Below the pieces are notes generated by a model, which worked only from the letters and a program-made list of their open reading frames with translations, was not told where the DNA came from and did not search any database. From Thermotoga neapolitana DSM 4359 (GTDB taxonomy: Bacteria > Thermotogota > Thermotogae > Thermotogales > Thermotogaceae): a DNA stretch of 64,000 nucleotides. The stretch is taken from contig NC_011978.1 in the NCBI RefSeq assembly GCF_000018945.1, forward strand, positions 1,582,729-1,646,728, in the 5' to 3' direction. This document shows, one piece after another, positions 12,878 through 23,057 of the stretch (its first letter is position 1; the number at the start of each line of letters is the position of its first letter). Made by a program: the position numbers and the translations under genes.

Positions 12878-14398
12878 ATGACTCAAAACAATGTTGAAAA
12901 ATGGGGAACATACGAAATAACACTCAAAGGGAAAGCGGAGGGGAATCCTTTTACAGACGTAGAAATCAAAGCAGTGTTTACAAGCGAAGCTGGTGACAGT
13001 TTTGAAGTGGAAGGCTTTTATGATGGGGAAGATACCTTCAAGATCAGGTTCATGCCGAACAGGACTGGTTTGTGGAAGTACGAGGTAAGAAGCGACATCA
13101 AAGATCTTGACGGTATGAAAGGAGAGTTTCTGTGTGTTGACCCTTCTGAAGGGAATCATGGACCTGTTCGAGTGTGCAACACTTATCATTTCTGCTATGA
13201 AGATGGGACACCTTACCATCCGTTTGGGACAACACTCTATGCGTGGGTACACCAGAGAGAAGAACTCATTCAGCAGACACTCGAATCACTCAGGAACTCT
13301 CCATTCAACAAAGTCAGGATGTGTGTGTTTCCGAAGTACTACGCTTACAATAGAGAAGAACCTCCTATGCTTCCTATGAGCTGGAGAGAGGAAGACGGGA
13401 GATATCAGGTAGAGTTCAATGTGAAGTTTTTCCAGCACTTTGAGAGGTTAGTGAAGGAACTTATGGACATGGGGATAGAAGCGGACGTGATACTGTTCCA
13501 TCCGTATGACAAATGGGGATTTTGCAGCATGCCGGAAGAAGTGGACAAAGCGTACTTGAGGTATCTGATAGCGAGAATTTCTTCTTACAGAAATGTGTGG
13601 TGGTCAATGGCGAACGAATACGACCTTATCAAACCACAAAAAGACTGGGATGGATACTTTCATTTCATAGTGGAGAAAGACCCTTATAACCATCTAAGAT
13701 CAGTGCATCAGTGTTTCAAGTTTTATGATCACACAAAACCCTGGATAACACACGCCAGCATTCAGTGGCAGGGGTCACTGAGATCGTGGAGCGGAGAACC
13801 TGAGATAGATATAGGCATAAATTTAATACCAAAATGGCGCGAGATGTACAAAAAACCAGTTATCATCGATGAATGTGGCTACGAAGGGAACATTGAGTAC
13901 GGATGGGGTAATCTGCCACCACAGGAGATGATGAATCGCTTTTGGGAAGGTGTTACCTCTGGAGGTTATGTGACACATGGAGAAACTTATTACTCTGAAG
14001 ACGAAGTCCTCTGGTGGTCAAAAGGCGGAAGATTGAAAGGTGAAAGTCCAAAAAGAATCGCATTCCTGAGAACGATTATAGAAGAAGCTCCACCGTTTCT
14101 TAAACCTATCAAGCTTGATCCTATGATGGACTGGGACGTTCATTGCATTGGTAAAGAAGGAGAATATTACCTGATCTACTTTGATATCAACAGACCAGTG
14201 AAAAGAACCTTAAAGCTTCCAGAAGGTAAGTACAGAGTAGATTTAGTTGACTGCTGGGAAACAGAGATACATAGTCTGGGGATCTTCCAGGGACAAGTTG
14301 TGATAAGGTTGCCGGGGAAATCGTATGTCGCTTTAAGAATTCAAAAAATGGAGAATAACGACGATTGGATAATTCTCCGAGAAGATGCTAAATTATAA
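12878..14398 (+). CDS. Apiosidase-like glycoside hydrolase (DUF5060-DUF4038 type)
   Basis: A 506-residue protein with an N-terminal beta-sandwich (about 1-90, DUF5060-like), a TIM-barrel of the DUF4038 apiosidase-like type (about 100-420) and a small C-terminal beta domain. The two clan-A catalytic Glu candidates are Glu247 in MANEYD and Glu332 in IIDECGY. There is no signal peptide, so it should act in the cytoplasm on an imported glycoside. I start at ATG 12878; the GTG at 12869 lies inside the ribosome site AAGGGTGAT. Its presence suggests that the operon handles a glycosidically linked pentose rather than only free ribose. Confidence 0.75.
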   Translation: MTQNNVEKWGTYEITLKGKAEGNPFTDVEIKAVFTSEAGDSFEVEGFYDGEDTFKIRFMPNRTGLWKYEVRSDIKDLDGMKGEFLCVDPSEGNHGPVRVCNTYHFCYEDGTPYHPFGTTLYAWVHQREELIQQTLESLRNSPFNKVRMCVFPKYYAYNREEPPMLPMSWREEDGRYQVEFNVKFFQHFERLVKELMDMGIEADVILFHPYDKWGFCSMPEEVDKAYLRYLIARISSYRNVWWSMANEYDLIKPQKDWDGYFHFIVEKDPYNHLRSVHQCFKFYDHTKPWITHASIQWQGSLRSWSGEPEIDIGINLIPKWREMYKKPVIIDECGYEGNIEYGWGNLPPQEMMNRFWEGVTSGGYVTHGETYYSEDEVLWWSKGGRLKGESPKRIAFLRTIIEEAPPFLKPIKLDPMMDWDVHCIGKEGEYYLIYFDINRPVKRTLKLPEGKYRVDLVDCWETEIHSLGIFQGQVVIRLPGKSYVALRIQKMENNDDWIILREDAKL

Positions 14399-14614
14399 AT
14401 GAAATCATTATTAATAGCTAAGTTTTTGTTTTGAATAGATAAAACAGGGTATGAGCGTACCACCATTGACGAGTGTTGCTGTTGACTCTTTATATTTACG
14501 TTTTTCAGCAAGAAAATCATTGAAGGAGTAGCAGCAATGGGAGGTTAAAAGAATAAGGCTTCTCATCAGTGATAAAATTTCATTGAAGATACTCGACAGG
14601 AAGGAGAAATTAGC
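14399..14614 (+). promoter_or_regulatory. Leader and promoter region of the LacI-family gene
   Basis: This 216-base gap has no full-size gene. A candidate promoter is TTGACG (14466-14471), a 19-base spacer and TATATT (14491-14496). Downstream lies a minimal reading frame, Met-Gly-Gly-stop (14537-14548), eight bases after a good GGAG site (14525-14528); it could be a leader or a remnant. I see no hairpin with a T-run to end the preceding operon and no copy of the rbsK operator. Confidence 0.45.
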
Positions 14615-15613
14615 ATGAAAAGGCGCCCTACAATAAATGATGTGGCGAAATTAGCTGGTGTTTCGATTTCAACTGTTTCCAGATATTTGAAAGATCCCTC
14701 GCAGGTCAGTGAAAAGTTAGGAGAGAGAATAAGAGAAGCCATAAAGAAACTGGGATACAAACCCAACAAGATAGCCCAGGGGTTGAGAACTGGTGATTCC
14801 AAAATGATAGGCTTCATCGTACCTGATATAACGAATCCCGCTTTTCTTACTATAGTTAAGGGAGCAGAGGATTTTCTGAGAAAAAAAGGTTATTCATTTA
14901 TCATAGGAGGAACCGATCATAAATCGAAAGATGAAGTAGTGATTCTCGAATCTTTCATATTCCACAACGTAGACGGTGTTATAGTAACATGTACAGGCTA
15001 CGAAAACAAAGCTCTAAAAGAACTTATAGAGAGATATCACCTCAAGTTGGTTTTCGTGGATAGAAGGTATCCCGGCATCGATGCTCCCTATATTGGTGTT
15101 GATAATTTTGGAGGAGTTGCCAGGATGGTTGATTATTTGGTCGAAACAGGTCATAGGTCATTTGCCTACCTTTGTGGAGATATGACCTCAACTGCGAAAG
15201 AACGTCTGGAAGGTTTTCTCGATCGTATGAAAAAGTACAAGATAAAGGATTACCAGGTTCTGTACGGAGAATTCACGTTTGAGAGTGGTTATAAACTCAC
15301 CAAAAGATTGTCAAAAATACCGGACGCAATAATAGCTGGAAACGATCTTATGGCCTTTGGTGTGATAGAAGCTCTGAAAGAGAGAGGATTGGTAGTTCCA
15401 GAGGACGTCAGTGTAACAGGCTTCGACGATATGTTTTTCAGCAAATACTATAAACCTTCTCTAACTACTGTTCGTCAGGATCTTTATGAAATGGGAAAAC
15501 AAGCCGGGAAAGTTCTGTTTGCACTTATTTCTGGAAAGAAGATAAGAAAAAAAGAGTACATACTTCCAACGGAAATCGTTATAAGAGATTCTGTGAAAGA
15601 AAGAAGAGCATAA
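14615..15613 (+). CDS. LacI-family transcriptional regulator (probable RbsR)
   Basis: A 332-residue repressor with an N-terminal helix-turn-helix (about 4-50: DVAKLAGVSISTVSRYL then the hinge KPNKIAQGLR) and a periplasmic-binding-protein-like effector domain. It should bind a sugar and control the upstream locus; the tandem GAAAACGATTTC boxes at 2426-2449 are the best candidate site. ATG 14615 is 8 bases after AAGGAG. It ends 5 bases from the stop of the convergent radical SAM gene. Confidence 0.9.
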   Translation: MKRRPTINDVAKLAGVSISTVSRYLKDPSQVSEKLGERIREAIKKLGYKPNKIAQGLRTGDSKMIGFIVPDITNPAFLTIVKGAEDFLRKKGYSFIIGGTDHKSKDEVVILESFIFHNVDGVIVTCTGYENKALKELIERYHLKLVFVDRRYPGIDAPYIGVDNFGGVARMVDYLVETGHRSFAYLCGDMTSTAKERLEGFLDRMKKYKIKDYQVLYGEFTFESGYKLTKRLSKIPDAIIAGNDLMAFGVIEALKERGLVVPEDVSVTGFDDMFFSKYYKPSLTTVRQDLYEMGKQAGKVLFALISGKKIRKKEYILPTEIVIRDSVKERRA

Positions 15614-15618
15614 TATTT

Positions 15619-16272
15619 CTACGGATACATTTCCAGATACTCCTTCTCTATCCTGCACGGAATGGGGAGTCTTTTTTCAAGCTCTTTCAGTCCTTTTTCT
15701 CTGAAAAGATCGTAGACAACAGCGACCCAGAAATGGACCTTTCCGTGGAGATGCTCCAGTGCTTTCAGCTGGTAGCGGAAGTACTCACCGCTTGCTCCTG
15801 TGATTTTCTCAAAACTTTCTTCATCCCAGCCTTTCACACTCACTCTGATTAAAACGTTGAGATTCACAAAAAGATCCACAAGAGAAGGATCGAACCCAAA
15901 CATCAGACCATTCGTCTCCAGAATGAAGGTGTTGTTCACAAGTTCTATAACTTTTCTCACGTGTTCGGCGGATCTTCTCCCAAGGATCGGTTCTGCCCCG
16001 CTGATCCTGAAAAGATCACACTTTCTTTTCTTTGAGATCTCAAGAAGCCTTTCTGCTACTTCCTCTGGTGAGAGAAAATCCCCTGCACGCTTGGGCCTGA
16101 GGTTTCTGAAGTAGTTCCAGCAGTAGGCACAGAGAAACTTACATCCTACAGTATCCGCTGTAACGATTCCCCCGTAGTAAAGAGAGTATCTGAATCTATA
16201 GTATTTTCGCCTTTCACCCTTCATGACAAGCGATTCCATCTCCATGGCTCTTTGTACCGGATTGAAGGCCAT
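15619..16272 (-). CDS. Radical SAM protein
   Basis: A 217-residue radical SAM protein with the cluster motif CKFLCAYC (Cys-x3-Cys-x2-Cys) and a following SGAEP segment that matches the usual GGEP strand. It should cleave S-adenosylmethionine reductively, but the substrate is not evident. ATG 16272 follows a strong GGAGGGGG site; a longer frame would run into the divergent gene. It is only 30 bases from the start of the DUF429 gene, sharing a palindromic divergent promoter region. Confidence 0.8.
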   Translation of the reverse strand: MAFNPVQRAMEMESLVMKGERRKYYRFRYSLYYGGIVTADTVGCKFLCAYCWNYFRNLRPKRAGDFLSPEEVAERLLEISKKRKCDLFRISGAEPILGRRSAEHVRKVIELVNNTFILETNGLMFGFDPSLVDLFVNLNVLIRVSVKGWDEESFEKITGASGEYFRYQLKALEHLHGKVHFWVAVVYDLFREKGLKELEKRLPIPCRIEKEYLEMYP

Positions 16273-16286
16273 ATTACCCCCTCCTT

Positions 16287-16301
16287 GTGTATAATGTACA
16301 C
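16287..16301. promoter_or_regulatory. Inverted repeat over divergent -10 region
   Basis: GTGTA (16287-16291) and TACAC (16297-16301) form a perfect 5-bp inverted repeat around a 5-base centre. The plus-strand TATAAT (16290-16295) lies within it, 7 bases before ATG 16303. The site could be an operator for both the radical SAM and DUF429 genes. Confidence 0.4.
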
Positions 16302-16302
16302 G

Positions 16303-16995
16303 ATGATCACAGCCGGTGTGGATGGTACGAGGAGAGGATGGGTGTATTCGATAGTGGAGGGAGACAGGGTTCTCGAGATAGGATTCATGGAACACTTCAT
16401 GTTCCTGGACTTTCCCACACTCGTTGATATTCCCATCGGTCTCCCGAAAAAAGGCGAGAGAGAGTGCGACAGACTCACCAGAAGGATCCTTTCAAAGAGA
16501 GCTGCAAGTGTCTTTACGGTCCCGTGCAGAGTGGCCGTTTATCGAGAAAGCTACGAGGATGCACTGAGAGTCAACAGAGAGTGCCAGGGGAAAGGATTTC
16601 CTGTTCAGTTCTGGCACATAGTGGAGAAAGTGAGAGAGGTTGACGTTTTTCTCAGAAGCTATCCAGATCTTTCCGATCAGATCAGAGAATCCCATCCCGA
16701 GCTGTGTTTTCTGAGGATATCAAGCAAAATGATGAAATCGAAACACACCAGAGAGGGTTTGAACCAGAGAATCGAGATCTTGAGAGAACATCTGGTCTTC
16801 GATGTGGAAAATCTGCAGAGAATTTGCAGAGAGTACAGAATACATATCCACGATGTGCTCGATTCACTCGTTCTTGCACTGGCTCAGCAATTTCCTCTTG
16901 AGAGGATACCGGAAGATCCCCCACTGGATGAACACGGCCTTCCCATGCAGATCATTGCACCAGCAAGGACACAGCGTTCGCCGAACCCTGAGTGA
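16303..16995 (+). CDS. DUF429 family protein
   Basis: A 230-residue protein opening with GVDGTRRGWV, the DUF429 signature. The fold is thought to be RNase H-like, and no function is established. No ribosome site precedes either possible start (ATG 16294 or 16303), while a perfect TATAAT ends 7 bases before ATG 16303, so a leaderless transcript is likely. Its last 44 bases overlap the 3' end of the convergent LVIVD gene. Confidence 0.75.
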   Translation: MITAGVDGTRRGWVYSIVEGDRVLEIGFMEHFMFLDFPTLVDIPIGLPKKGERECDRLTRRILSKRAASVFTVPCRVAVYRESYEDALRVNRECQGKGFPVQFWHIVEKVREVDVFLRSYPDLSDQIRESHPELCFLRISSKMMKSKHTREGLNQRIEILREHLVFDVENLQRICREYRIHIHDVLDSLVLALAQQFPLERIPEDPPLDEHGLPMQIIAPARTQRSPNPE

Positions 16996-17902
16996 GGACG
17001 TTGAAAACCTCATTCATGTGAGAAGGATCACTCACATCCACCACAGTCAGGTATCCGTTGAAGTCTGCAATGTAAAGAAATCCTTCATAAAGCCACAGAC
17101 TCTGAGCCTTTCCTCCACTCGTTGGTATGTGATCGAGAACGAACGGGTTTCCAGGATCTGAAACGTCAATCGTTTGAACACCGAACGCGTAGTCTGCAAG
17201 ATACAGCACACTATCTGAAACGATCACATCGTAGGGTGTCTGCGATTCGTAGGTCCCCAGAATTTGAGAGAGATCGTTCGCATCGATGATCGATACCCCT
17301 TCACCGTAGACAACGGCGTAGATCCTCTCATCTGACACGAAGACACTTCTCACCGTTCCAAAATTCACTCTTTCGAGAAATACAGGATTTGCCGGATTTG
17401 AAACGTCCACCACCTTCAAACCTTCATTGTAACAGGCCACGTAAGCGCGGTTTCCTGAAATGTGTACCTTTTCCGCCCAGTCCGCTTCTTCGAGTCTTGC
17501 AACCAGCACAGGGGAAGAAGGATCGGTTACGTTGTAAACCAGAAGACCGTTCGTCCAGTCCGCCACGTAGAGATAATCACCGGATAGGTCTACCCCGTAG
17601 GCGTAGTGGGTGTTCAGCTGATTCAACTGAACGGGATTTTCGGGATCGCTCACATCGAGAACGTGGATTCCGCTCTGACCATCTGCGAGGAACGCATACT
17701 GTCCCGAAACTTCAACATCGAGAGCGCTGTTTGCGAGAGAAACAAAAGAAATACTAACGGGGGTAGCTGTGACGTCGAACACTTCCAGACCTTCCCCGGT
17801 TGCCACCAGGGCATAGACCTTTTCTTGAGGCAGAGCCGGTATCATCTGGAAGCATCCAGAAAGGAATAGAAGAGCGAGAATAACAGGAAAGATCGCCTTC
17901 AT
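16952..17902 (-). CDS. LVIVD-repeat beta-propeller lipoprotein
   Basis: A 316-residue predicted lipoprotein: signal peptide with lipobox LSGC (Cys17), then about six repeats of roughly 40 residues, each with a VxDVSDPxNP-like turn, as in LVIVD proteins that fold as a beta-propeller. It should sit on the outside of the membrane; ligand unknown. ATG 17902 has a GGGAGGTGAT site. Its 3' end overlaps the DUF429 gene by 44 bases, so neither gene has an independent terminator. Confidence 0.8.
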   Translation of the reverse strand: MKAIFPVILALLFLSGCFQMIPALPQEKVYALVATGEGLEVFDVTATPVSISFVSLANSALDVEVSGQYAFLADGQSGIHVLDVSDPENPVQLNQLNTHYAYGVDLSGDYLYVADWTNGLLVYNVTDPSSPVLVARLEEADWAEKVHISGNRAYVACYNEGLKVVDVSNPANPVFLERVNFGTVRSVFVSDERIYAVVYGEGVSIIDANDLSQILGTYESQTPYDVIVSDSVLYLADYAFGVQTIDVSDPGNPFVLDHIPTSGGKAQSLWLYEGFLYIADFNGYLTVVDVSDPSHMNEVFNVLTQGSANAVSLLVQ

Positions 17903-17990
17903 TCTATCACCTCCCTGTGCATTCTACGTCCAGTAGTAAAAGAAAAATGAAAAAACAGTGTAAGATTTATAACTGGAGGGGGGAGATAAC

Positions 17991-19259
17991 ATGAAAAGAT
18001 TTCTGGCAATTCTTTTGATTCTTCCGGTCATGGTGCTTGCGATACATCCTCTGGATCTTCTTGTTCGTGCAAGGGGAAATCCTGTCTACGAGACGATCAT
18101 TGCAACCACAACCCAGGACGGCGACGAGATATACATATTGAAATCCTACGGCATGAACTGGCAGAACATCCAGTGGTTCCACAGAGTGGGCATAATCCTT
18201 CCGTCGAACTTGAATTACAAAGACAGGGCGTTTTTCTTCATAACGGGAGGAAGCAGAAAGGAAGAAAACGAACGCTATTACGATTCGTTTCTGGAAGACG
18301 TAAAAGAGAATCTGTGGGTGGCGAAGGAATTCGAAGCACCTTTCATAGTTGTGGGGGACGTTCCAAATCAGCCGATTTTCGGGCTCAGAGAAGATGCCCT
18401 GATCGCAGAAACGTTCAAAATGTTCCTCGAGAACCCAGATCCGTTTCTTCCCCTCCTTGTTCCCATGACGTACGGTGTGATAAAGGCCATGGACACGGCA
18501 CAAGATTTCCTTGAGAAAAAAGGCGTGGAAATCAAAGGCTTCATGGTATCGGGGGCCTCCAAAAGAGGGTGGACCACGTATCTTACGGCGATCTTCGACC
18601 CACGCGTTTTCGCCATCGCTCCGATGGTGTACGACAATCTGAACATAGAAGCCCAGCTTTTGCATCAGAAAGAGTACTATGGTACCTACAGCGAGAAGTT
18701 GAGAGATTATCAGGAAAGAGGGCTCTTCGAGATTCTCGAAAACGATCTGGGAAAAAGGCTTCTTGAAATTGTCGATCCTTACGCTATGAGATTGAGACTC
18801 TCTCTTCCAAAGATCCTTGTGCTCGGCACCAACGACGAATACTGGACCGTGGATTCGGCGAACCTCTACGTGGATGATCTTCCGGGCGAAACCTTTCTAT
18901 TCTATTCTCCAAACGATCCCCACAACCTGAAGAATGTGAAAGAAATAATAGAGACTCTCTCTTCGTTCTTCAAGATGTACCCCAAACTGCCGAAGGTGGA
19001 ATTCTTTTACAGGGACGGGAAAATATTCGTTGAAAGGATTCCGGAAATTGTAGACGCGGAACTGTGGTTTGCAAGATCGAAGAGCAGAGATTTCAGAAAG
19101 GCGGTGTGGCTCAGACGTGGCGTGGAAGAAACCGATGATTCGCTGATCGGGGTACCTCCTGAAAAGCCTGAAGGTTTTCATCAGGCGTACTTCTTGAGGG
19201 TCACTCTCGAAATCAATGGGTTGAGGATGAAGCTTTGCAGTAAGATGATGGTGGAATAA
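17991..19259 (+). CDS. PhoPQ-activated pathogenicity-related (PqaA-type) hydrolase
   Basis: A 422-residue secreted alpha/beta-hydrolase of the PhoPQ_related family. It has a signal peptide (about 1-17), the nucleophile segment GASKRGWTTYLTA (Ser), GTNDEYW (Asp) and a later NDPH (His). The family is best known from PhoP-regulated genes of enteric bacteria; substrate is unknown. The start has GGAGGGGGGAG upstream. It is divergent from the LVIVD gene across 88 bases, and ends 55 bases from the convergent propeller gene, with no clear terminator between. Confidence 0.75.
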   Translation: MKRFLAILLILPVMVLAIHPLDLLVRARGNPVYETIIATTTQDGDEIYILKSYGMNWQNIQWFHRVGIILPSNLNYKDRAFFFITGGSRKEENERYYDSFLEDVKENLWVAKEFEAPFIVVGDVPNQPIFGLREDALIAETFKMFLENPDPFLPLLVPMTYGVIKAMDTAQDFLEKKGVEIKGFMVSGASKRGWTTYLTAIFDPRVFAIAPMVYDNLNIEAQLLHQKEYYGTYSEKLRDYQERGLFEILENDLGKRLLEIVDPYAMRLRLSLPKILVLGTNDEYWTVDSANLYVDDLPGETFLFYSPNDPHNLKNVKEIIETLSSFFKMYPKLPKVEFFYRDGKIFVERIPEIVDAELWFARSKSRDFRKAVWLRRGVEETDDSLIGVPPEKPEGFHQAYFLRVTLEINGLRMKLCSKMMVE

Positions 19260-19314
19260 CGGGGTGAAATCTTGGGAAAATGTAGTTGGTGAATCTAATA
19301 GTCCAGGTGAAGAC

Positions 19315-20343
19315 TCAATAGACTGTGTAGAAGATGAGTTCTCCAGAATCGGTGCAGAGAACAGCGAATTCTTTTTCGGAGATCTTGAAAATCTTCAGAG
19401 GATACTTTCCCGTTTTAACCGTTTGAACGACTCTATCGTTTTTTATCAGATATATCTCTTCTGCTTCCACAGAAAGTGCCACCAGATAGTTTTCTATCTC
19501 CTCGAGGTAGAGCACAGGGTGCGGCACGTTGATTTGTTTTACGCTTCCGTTTCTGTCAACCACAGAGATAACGGGAGAAACAAGACTGGCAACTGCAATG
19601 TCGGGTCCATAGAAGGAAATACCGTAAGCAAAATCGGGAAGGTTTTTCTTCCACACCACCTTTCCGTTCACCAATTTCACGAGCCAGCCGTTTCGGTAGT
19701 CAAGGACGTAATCACCGCTTGAACCTTCCACGTAGCGCAGAGGTCGAGAGAGTCCCAGACGAACAGAGGTCATGCTACCGTACCTGAGGTAAATCACATC
19801 GGGATCGTCTTCATCTCTCCAATAACAAAGGTAGGCGATTCCTTTCGAAGTTGGAACGAAATAGGTGCTTGAAACTCCTGTTCTGTACCTTTCCACAACT
19901 TTGAAGGAACGTAGATCCACTCCAACGAGCGTTCCCTGGGAAAACAACGAAATGTAAAAAACACCGTTGTGGTAAAGAAAGACCGTGGGATCCCCACCAA
20001 GAAGAATTTCTCTCTTTCTCTTTCCCGAAGGAGTGAGTTCAACGAATTTTCCCTCGAACATATCAGTAACGTAGAAGTTTCCTTTGAGGTACATACCCCA
20101 GACAGGGTAGGAAAAACCTGTGAAACGCGCTGTTACTCTCTTTGAAAGCGCATTCACCGCGACGACTTCTCTTTTCAAAGAATCAACGAGGGTGATGACA
20201 CCCTCGTTGATCGTTCCTCTCAAAGGATTCACATTGAGATCTATCCTCTCTGTTTCGAGGATTCCCGCGAAAACACTTACGATCAGAGATACAAGTAGCG
20301 CTGCAGTTCCCAGTTTGTAACGTAGGTGCTGAATTCCTTCCAA
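19315..20343 (-). CDS. Secreted beta-propeller-like protein of unknown function
   Basis: A protein of up to 342 residues with an N-terminal hydrophobic signal (about 13-27) followed by repeated beta-strand blocks of the YncE/NHL kind. No catalytic motif is visible. The start is uncertain: the frame opens at TTG 20343, inside the 3' end of glnA (61-base overlap), and no ATG or GTG occurs before the signal sequence. It is transcribed after glnA, probably as one unit. Confidence 0.6.
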   Translation of the reverse strand: MEGIQHLRYKLGTAALLVSLIVSVFAGILETERIDLNVNPLRGTINEGVITLVDSLKREVVAVNALSKRVTARFTGFSYPVWGMYLKGNFYVTDMFEGKFVELTPSGKRKREILLGGDPTVFLYHNGVFYISLFSQGTLVGVDLRSFKVVERYRTGVSSTYFVPTSKGIAYLCYWRDEDDPDVIYLRYGSMTSVRLGLSRPLRYVEGSSGDYVLDYRNGWLVKLVNGKVVWKKNLPDFAYGISFYGPDIAVASLVSPVISVVDRNGSVKQINVPHPVLYLEEIENYLVALSVEAEEIYLIKNDRVVQTVKTGKYPLKIFKISEKEFAVLCTDSGELIFYTVY

Positions 20344-21602
20344 TCCTTTTCGGCAGCCTCCACAAATTTTTCGAATATATGTTCTCCCAGTGCATCTATT
20401 ATAACATCGTCTTTCTTGAGTTCTTCGACAGCCTCTTTCAGTGATCCTGGAAGCGATTCTATGTTGAGTTCTTCCCTTCTCTCAGACGTCATGTGGTAAA
20501 TGTTTTCTTCAACCGGCGCGGGAGGCTCGATTTTGTTGATGATACCGTCCAGACCTGCCGCGAGGATAGCCGCGAAGGCAAGATAGATGTTACAGGATGG
20601 ATCGGGTGATCTGTACTCCAATCTTGTCGCTTTTCCTCTTGCCTTTGGAATTCTGATGAGGGCGCTTCTGTTTCCAACTGACCAGGAGATGTAAACGGGC
20701 GCTTCGTAACCGGGAACGAGTCTCTTGTAGCTGTTTATCGTGGGATTTGTGACGGCTGCGAGAGCTTTGGCGTGCTTCAATATACCACCAACGAAGTATC
20801 TGAGTTCTTTAGAAAGCCCAAGAGGATCGTCGGGATCGTAGAAGGCATTTTTGTCACCCCTGAAAAGACTCATGTGGACATGCATTCCCGATCCGTTCAC
20901 ACCGTAGAAGGGTTTGGGCATGAAGGTTGCATGATATCCGTGGAAGATGGCCATGGTCTTGATTACGAGTTTCACGGTCTGGGCATTGTCGGCGGTTCTC
21001 AGGAAAGTGTCGTACCTGAAGTCCACCTCGTGCTGTGAGGGAGCAACTTCGTGGTGCGTTGCTTCAACAGTGATCCCCATCTTTTCGAGAGCTATCGCGA
21101 TGTCCCTTCTGATCTCCTCGACTTTACTGAGCGGCAGAAGATCGAAATATCCTCCATGGTCAAGAAACTCAGGAACAGGTTCTCCTTTTTCGTTGATGGG
21201 AAGGATGAAAAATTCCATCTCGGGACCCGCATACGGTGTGTAACCCAGCTGTTCTGCTTTTTCCATCATTCTTCTTAGTCTGTAACGGGGATCTCCCTCA
21301 AAGGGTTTACCATCTGGAGTGTAAACGTCACAGATGACTCTTGCACTCTTTGCACCATCGACCGTCCACGGAAGAACGGCGAAGGTGTCGAGGACGGGCT
21401 TGAGGTACATATCAGACTCTTCGATTCTCACAAAACCCTCGATGGATGAACCGTCGAACATGATTCCGTCCTCCCAGGATTCGAGAAAAACATCCGGCGT
21501 TATCTCTAAATTCTTCAAGGTCCCGTTGATGTCGGTGAATTGCAGCCTGATGAATCGAACATTCTCCTCTTCGATGATTCTTTTGATGGTCTCAATTGTC
21601 AT
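20283..21602 (-). CDS. glnA: Glutamine synthetase, type I
   Basis: This enzyme makes glutamine from glutamate, ammonia and ATP. The 439-residue length fits the GSI-alpha subclass. The N-terminal beta-grasp domain carries the DGSS signature and the catalytic domain has GSGMHVHMS, the ATP/glutamate site NRSALIRIP and the Arg-rich EYRSPDP segment. I see no clear adenylylation Tyr motif. A very strong GAGGAGGTG ribosome site precedes the ATG. A plus-strand promoter pointing away from glnA overlaps this leader (candidate small RNA at 21652). Confidence 0.95.
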   Translation of the reverse strand: MTIETIKRIIEEENVRFIRLQFTDINGTLKNLEITPDVFLESWEDGIMFDGSSIEGFVRIEESDMYLKPVLDTFAVLPWTVDGAKSARVICDVYTPDGKPFEGDPRYRLRRMMEKAEQLGYTPYAGPEMEFFILPINEKGEPVPEFLDHGGYFDLLPLSKVEEIRRDIAIALEKMGITVEATHHEVAPSQHEVDFRYDTFLRTADNAQTVKLVIKTMAIFHGYHATFMPKPFYGVNGSGMHVHMSLFRGDKNAFYDPDDPLGLSKELRYFVGGILKHAKALAAVTNPTINSYKRLVPGYEAPVYISWSVGNRSALIRIPKARGKATRLEYRSPDPSCNIYLAFAAILAAGLDGIINKIEPPAPVEENIYHMTSERREELNIESLPGSLKEAVEELKKDDVIIDALGEHIFEKFVEAAEKDWKEFSTYVTNWELQRYLYL

Positions 21603-21616
21603 AACAACACCTCCTC

Positions 21617-21645
21617 TTGAACATAAAAAATCATTGTGGTATAAT
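21617..21645 (+). promoter_or_regulatory. Plus-strand promoter inside the glnA leader
   Basis: TTGAAC (21617-21622), a spacer of exactly 17 bases and TATAAT (21640-21645) preceded by TGG give a near-consensus extended -10 promoter. It points away from glnA toward a hairpin-plus-T-run. No plus-strand protein gene follows. Confidence 0.6.
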
Positions 21646-21651
21646 CAATAT

Positions 21652-21736
21652 CCCAAGACATGAAATGAAGTTGTTTGGGCCAGTAAAAATCAAAAACAAC
21701 AACCTTTTCTGTCCCCGGGGACAGAGGGGTTTTTTC
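21652..21736 (+). ncRNA. Candidate small RNA next to glnA
   Basis: The predicted transcript is about 85 bases, from the promoter at 21617-21645 to the terminator ending near 21736. It can form CCCAA/TTGGG (21652-21656 with 21675-21679) or, instead, GTTGTTT/AAACAAC (21670-21676 with 21694-21700); these two stems exclude each other. It would be antisense to any long glnA leader coming from the minus strand. I do not recognise it as a known RNA family. Confidence 0.4.
21704..21735 (+). terminator. Intrinsic terminator on the plus strand
   Basis: CTGTCCCCGGGGACAG (21709-21724) is a perfect 16-base palindrome, extended outward by T-A, three T-G pairs and C-G. It is followed by TTTTTT (21730-21735) and CTTTTT. 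The T-run lies only on the plus strand, where no protein gene ends. Confidence 0.75.
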
Positions 21737-21785
21737 TTTTTGCATCTTTATGCGTAGAATATAACAGCCGTTTGTGAATTGCAAA

Positions 21786-23057
21786 TTATTTGGAAGTTAA
21801 AAAGCGGTTTAGAAATACCTTCAGAAATAAGAACACAGCATATCCTATAGCAAGGCCAAGAGCGCTTCTGTAGATAGAAACCACCAGAGGCGTTTTAACA
21901 TGACAGAACGTGTTGAACATCGAAACGAGCGCAACGCTGCCAAAACTCTCTCTGAGAAAATCGTATTCTCTGAATCCTTCCAACCAGAAAAACGGGTAGC
22001 ACACAATTTCCTTGAAACGGGGCCGAACCATCAAAACACTCTCCAGCCAGTCTCTGAACTTTCTTTCAACTTCCAGCACCCATCCCGAATTTCCCGAACG
22101 CATAAGATAATAGAAACCCACAGGAATGGCAAGGAAAAGGAGCGGCAGGTACTTTTTCCAGTTTCTTCTGTTCTTCCAAAGTCCTGAAAGAAAGAGAAGC
22201 CCGGGAAGAAGTACGAGTGAAAGTTTCACTCCGCGGAAGTCCAGGATACCGTTGAGGTGGTACAGATCGCTGAGACTCAGAGACAGAGAGATCGACAGAA
22301 GGAGAAAACTCAACACTTTCAACCATTTCTTTTTCGGCACAAAATACGCCGCCAGTGTACCGGAAACAAAAAGGAGAGACACGAACCATTCCCTTGAAAA
22401 AGGCAAAACGAAGACTACAGAGAGAAGCAGAGGATTCAGAGAGGTTATCATAAGAATGGGAGGTATCAAGAAGATCCACTTCGGGAAAGGCGGTTCAGAT
22501 TCTGGAGGAGCCGGAAACGGTACAACTTTTCCTTTGAAATAACTGGAAAGCCTCTGAACGAGGAGCTCTTTTTCGTCTATGTCCCTTATCCAGAGAACCT
22601 CCACACTTCGTTCAAGAACGGCTCTTTTGTACCTGTGAAACAGCGCTTCTTCGTCCAGATTCAGCTTTTCTATCTCTTCGGGTTTCACCGTGTGAACACG
22701 AAAGAAGAGGCCGTCTTTCTTCAAAAGTGCGACTTTTCTTGCGAAATCGTAAGATGGATCGAACTCAACGATCCCAAGCCATTTTCCTTTCAATTTCTCT
22801 GCCAATTCTTGAGGCTCCCAGAAGAGAGGTTCACCTTTGAGAATCACGATCTCGGCTTCCGGTGGCAAATCTTTTCTGCTCGAAAGGTCAAAGAGAACCA
22901 CTCGCTTTCCATCGATCATGTCGTCGAACAGAAAGGAAAATTCCATCCCTTTCCTGTCATAAGCCACCCTTTCTGGAAGAAAGAACACGATGAGAACAAC
23001 AGAACTCACCAGAAAAATGAGAAAAAGACTATTTCTCAAGTTTGTAAACTTCTTCAC
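21786..23057 (-). CDS. Polytopic membrane protein (DUF5693-like)
   Basis: A 423-residue membrane protein: one N-terminal helix, an extracytoplasmic or soluble domain (about 30-190), then about seven hydrophobic segments. The layout resembles DUF5693 proteins found near cell-surface polymer genes; that match is from architecture and is tentative. It starts with GTG 23057 after a GAGGTGAT site, overlapping the upstream gene by 29 bases. It probably forms an operon with the next two genes upstream. Confidence 0.6.
   Translation of the reverse strand: MKKFTNLRNSLFLIFLVSSVVLIVFFLPERVAYDRKGMEFSFLFDDMIDGKRVVLFDLSSRKDLPPEAEIVILKGEPLFWEPQELAEKLKGKWLGIVEFDPSYDFARKVALLKKDGLFFRVHTVKPEEIEKLNLDEEALFHRYKRAVLERSVEVLWIRDIDEKELLVQRLSSYFKGKVVPFPAPPESEPPFPKWIFLIPPILMITSLNPLLLSVVFVLPFSREWFVSLLFVSGTLAAYFVPKKKWLKVLSFLLLSISLSLSLSDLYHLNGILDFRGVKLSLVLLPGLLFLSGLWKNRRNWKKYLPLLFLAIPVGFYYLMRSGNSGWVLEVERKFRDWLESVLMVRPRFKEIVCYPFFWLEGFREYDFLRESFGSVALVSMFNTFCHVKTPLVVSIYRSALGLAIGYAVFLFLKVFLNRFLTSK

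Follow-up and report, generated by a model that had tools for sequence, protein, structure and literature searches.

A predicted antisense transcription unit conserved opposite the glnA leader in Thermotoga

Organization of the glnA leader region

The DNA analysed is a stretch of 64,000 nucleotides from Thermotoga neapolitana DSM 4359 (contig NC_011978.1), referred to below as the window. The glnA gene lies on its minus strand, and is preceded on the same strand by a gene for a membrane-like protein matching DUF5693 (Pfam PF18949), at 21786-23057. The position of the glnA promoter implies a leader of about 149 bases, which passes through the whole of a second, oppositely oriented feature on the plus strand (Table 1). 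In most Thermotoga species the glnA promoter is weak, with at most 9 of the 12 consensus positions matched.

Table 1. Features of the glnA leader region (positions in the window)
Feature	Position	Strand	Remarks
glnA, type I glutamate--ammonia ligase (439 aa)	20283-21602	-	
glnA leader, about 149 nt (putative start)	21603-21751	-	antisense RNA overlaps at 21652-21735
Antisense promoter: -35 TTGAAC (21617-21622), TGG (21637-21639), -10 TATAAT (21640-21645), 17-bp spacer	21617-21645	+	
Invariant CCC, 7-9 bases past the -10 box, presumed transcription start	21652-21654	+	
Candidate antisense RNA of about 84 nt with a poorly conserved body	21652-21735	+	5' end placed by T. maritima spacing
Intrinsic terminator: 11-pair stem, CCGG loop, T6	21704-21735	+	58 bases past the antisense promoter
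Near-invariant block GCATCTTTATGC (minus strand GCATAAAGATGC)	21742-21753		spans the putative glnA start
glnA promoter TTTGCA-16-TATATT	21758-21785	-	-10 box also kept in sister genus G010

An earlier note on this DNA had pointed to a near-consensus promoter on the plus strand, followed by a GC palindrome and a run of six T residues. A promoter scan found the letters as described, with 10 of the 12 consensus positions matched and a TG before the -10 box. The palindrome was found as well: the hairpin CTTTTCTGTCC-CCGG-GGACAGAGGGG occupies 21704-21729 and the T6 run, at 21730-21735, adjoins it directly, forming a terminator with an 11-pair stem and a folding energy of -15.8 kcal/mol (z -2.5). The plus strand carries no protein gene at this unit.

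A study of T. maritima transcripts gives 7 bp as the spacing between the -10 box and the start (PMC3636130). At this distance from the antisense -10 box lies the first C of a CCC triplet, in all six distinct Thermotoga sequences compared. By contrast, CCC occupied positions 7-9 in none of 25 gene promoters from a 464-kb sample (the window and a further 400 kb of the genome, both strands), where purines predominate. The sequence would encode, opposite the glnA leader and with its own promoter and terminator, a cis-encoded antisense RNA. This agrees with the proposal of the note, a stand-alone non-coding RNA of about 85 nt that opposes a long leader of glnA. The candidate RNA does not reach the glnA ribosome-binding site.

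The two stems of this RNA, which the note had taken to be mutually exclusive, can form together: the minimum-energy fold of the 84-mer contains both, one beside the other. The 5' stem, CCCAA/UUGGG, was discarded as a conserved element, being missing from three of the genomes (G001, G005 and G002), and the whole RNA is not unusually stable (z only -0.7).

The same 464 kb served as background for the rarity of the arrangement. Promoters matching at least 10 of 12 positions numbered 69 on both strands, and three promoter-terminator pairs lay outside genes. The other two are tRNA genes, indicating that the pattern marks real non-coding genes in this genome; the pair in the glnA leader is the only one with no downstream gene or recognised product, and the only one with a TGn element. 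Only one copy of the palindrome is present genome-wide, even when up to 2 mismatches are allowed, and a DNA search returned no further copy of the region, so that a repeated element or mobile insert was rejected.

Two other readings were set aside. None of the Rfam covariance models reached its gathering score anywhere in the window, and hits with E values up to 5 were at chance level; on these grounds a glutamine riboswitch or another Rfam leader was rejected. A leader peptide (48 amino acids here, on the minus strand, its stop codon overlapping the glnA ATG) was dismissed because its frame is shifted, truncated or lost between species.

Conservation and strand preference in Thermotoga

Seven Thermotoga genomes were compared; two are identical at this region, leaving six distinct sequences from one genus. 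The earlier note had held that loss of the promoter and palindrome in near relatives would speak against the unit; both are kept in all seven genomes. The antisense promoter matches the consensus at 10 positions in five of the six distinct sequences and at 12 of 12 in the sixth, and TG is always present. Of 14 positions in the hexamers and TG, 11 are invariant, compared with 2 of 14 spacer positions (Fisher p = 0.002). G002, the most divergent species, has an insertion that relocated the -35 box, and its promoter now reads as a perfect TTGACA-16-TATAAT.

The sister genus G010 retains the -10 box of the glnA promoter but has a leader of only about 30 nt, without the insert. In the other Thermotogales glnA leaders that could be read, the antisense promoter was not found. 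These observations identify the antisense unit as a feature of Thermotoga.

The terminator is present in all the Thermotoga sequences, with a weaker T-run in G005 and G002. Of 30 lower-stem positions summed over the sequences, 26 are paired in the plus-strand RNA and 17 in its minus-strand counterpart: in most species the G-U pairs of the former correspond to A-C mismatches in the latter. The plus-strand RNA is therefore the better candidate for the strand under selection. Covariance, which the note had suggested as a check, lent no help: no stem pair showed a compensatory two-sided change among the six distinct sequences of this single genus.

Alternatively, the hairpin could have its main role on the minus strand, within the glnA leader, acting there as an attenuator or 5' stabiliser and leaving the plus-strand unit secondary. 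Read on that strand, the hairpin folds with a z of -3.4, and a U-rich stretch follows it in all species. The inner stem of G002 is also more stable on that strand, so the hairpin may have an additional function in the glnA leader. As the chief role we regard this as unlikely, though not negligible: the A-C mismatches fall on the minus strand, the T-run abuts the stem directly on the plus strand only, and the conserved plus-strand promoter would be left unexplained. A DNA operator at the palindrome was also rejected, since its centre varies and G002 carries an extra base, which would be more in keeping with an RNA loop than with a dimer site.

The body of the RNA varies among the Thermotoga sequences, the 5' end being better conserved than the middle. 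Such variation is to be expected if the opposite strand is itself the target. The conserved 5' AUCCCNRACAC could also be the seed of a trans-acting small RNA, encoded by chance opposite the glnA leader; other bacteria have small RNAs whose C-rich 5' seeds bind ribosome-binding sites, and the gradient of conservation would fit. The variable body stands against this, as does the absence of excess pairing over shuffled RNAs: among 225 gene starts (400 kb, crude start prediction) the best duplex reached -25.8 kcal/mol, within the -19.4 to -31.3 kcal/mol of the shuffled RNAs. We give trans action little credence.

Predicted effect on glnA

On balance we think it probable, from the arrangement of the sequence, that the antisense unit represses glnA in cis, by convergent transcription, antisense pairing or both. 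Action in cis fits better than a trans target because the weak glnA promoter is opposed by a stronger one, the RNA would stop before reaching the glnA start, and its body has drifted freely. RNA polymerase would start at the strong extended -10 promoter adjoining the glnA ribosome-binding site and proceed in the direction of the glnA promoter for about 84 bases, until stopped by the terminator some 15 bases before the glnA start. On the way it may collide with, or block, polymerases coming from the weaker glnA promoter. The RNA, complementary to the leader from about +17 to +100, might in addition pair with the nascent leader, and the terminator would prevent antisense transcription from entering the glnA promoter. 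From these features we infer antisense transcription, repression of glnA and a split of the effect between collision and base pairing. Counting against this proposal, the T. maritima study reports few non-coding RNAs and antisense transcripts that are mostly weak (PMC3636130), and the predicted RNA leaves the glnA ribosome-binding site uncovered.

The promoter and terminator may have been kept for another reason, such as a roadblock by a parked polymerase, the RNA itself having no role. Its body is unconserved, and the footprint of the antisense promoter would cover the glnA start codon. The terminator is conserved too, however, which argues that an elongating polymerase reaches it, and we consider this alternative improbable.

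Repression in cis would have parallels. In Clostridium acetobutylicum an antisense RNA opposes the 5' part of the glnA mRNA, as the predicted Thermotoga RNA does; in the clostridial case transcription begins downstream of glnA and the RNA extends over the ribosome-binding site, whereas the Thermotoga RNA would start within the leader and leave that site uncovered. Antisense attenuation of the pT181/pIP501 type employs a short antisense RNA encoded inside the leader with its own terminator, an arrangement shared by the Thermotoga unit, but no clear sense-strand terminator or anti-terminator switch was found in the glnA leader.

In the helD/pps system of B. subtilis the leader houses an antisense promoter stronger than the sense promoter; its transcript, about 90 nt long, ends at a terminator, and the sense promoter is repressed (PMC12802891). 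Induction of the sense gene by rifampicin is a further mark of that system. The glnA unit resembles it in its strong extended -10 antisense promoter in the leader, its weaker sense promoter and its proximal intrinsic terminator. In most species a weak sense promoter, with at most 9 of 12 positions matched, faces an antisense promoter with 10-12, strength being read here as consensus match only. The -10 boxes are 112 bp apart, compared with 45-55 bp in helD/pps, and the antisense spacer is 17 bp rather than 19; the presumed start is CCC instead of G, and the target here is glnA. Since the helD/pps definition calls for promoters 45-100 bp apart (the limits of the search) and a long antisense spacer, the glnA unit falls outside it: it may work by analogy with helD/pps and is not classed as a member.

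The link between the candidate RNA and nitrogen is inferred solely from glnA being the gene opposed. Glutamine is the amino donor in CTP synthesis, and it may be speculated that a start at C lets the antisense promoter respond to CTP. A complete loop, in which ample glutamine raises CTP, CTP raises antisense transcription from CCC and glnA expression falls, is a long shot; if true, it would provide nitrogen feedback with neither protein regulator nor riboswitch. T. maritima is reported to have very few non-coding RNAs and short leaders, leaving little room for regulators (PMC3636130). A conserved antisense unit on a central nitrogen-assimilation gene would in itself be a compact, protein-free control at about 80 degrees, and convergent-promoter control would thereby extend to the Thermotogota.

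Sequence relationships of the surrounding DNA

The block GCATCTTTATGC at 21742-21753 is near-invariant in Thermotoga, G002 differing by one base, and G010 keeps only GCAT. It is possibly an operator or an element of the initial transcript.

Positions 1-25561 of the window are essentially 100% identical to genome G006, which we take to be T. maritima, and identity is about 75% beyond about 25.7 kb. The near-identical tract takes in glnA and its leader and extends to the left of the window; this could be due either to recent transfer or to a mixed assembly. Between 14000 and 33000, identity to genome G001 is 97% over 14000-19284 and then steps rightward to 85% and 76%, a further sign of the mosaic nature of Thermotoga genomes.
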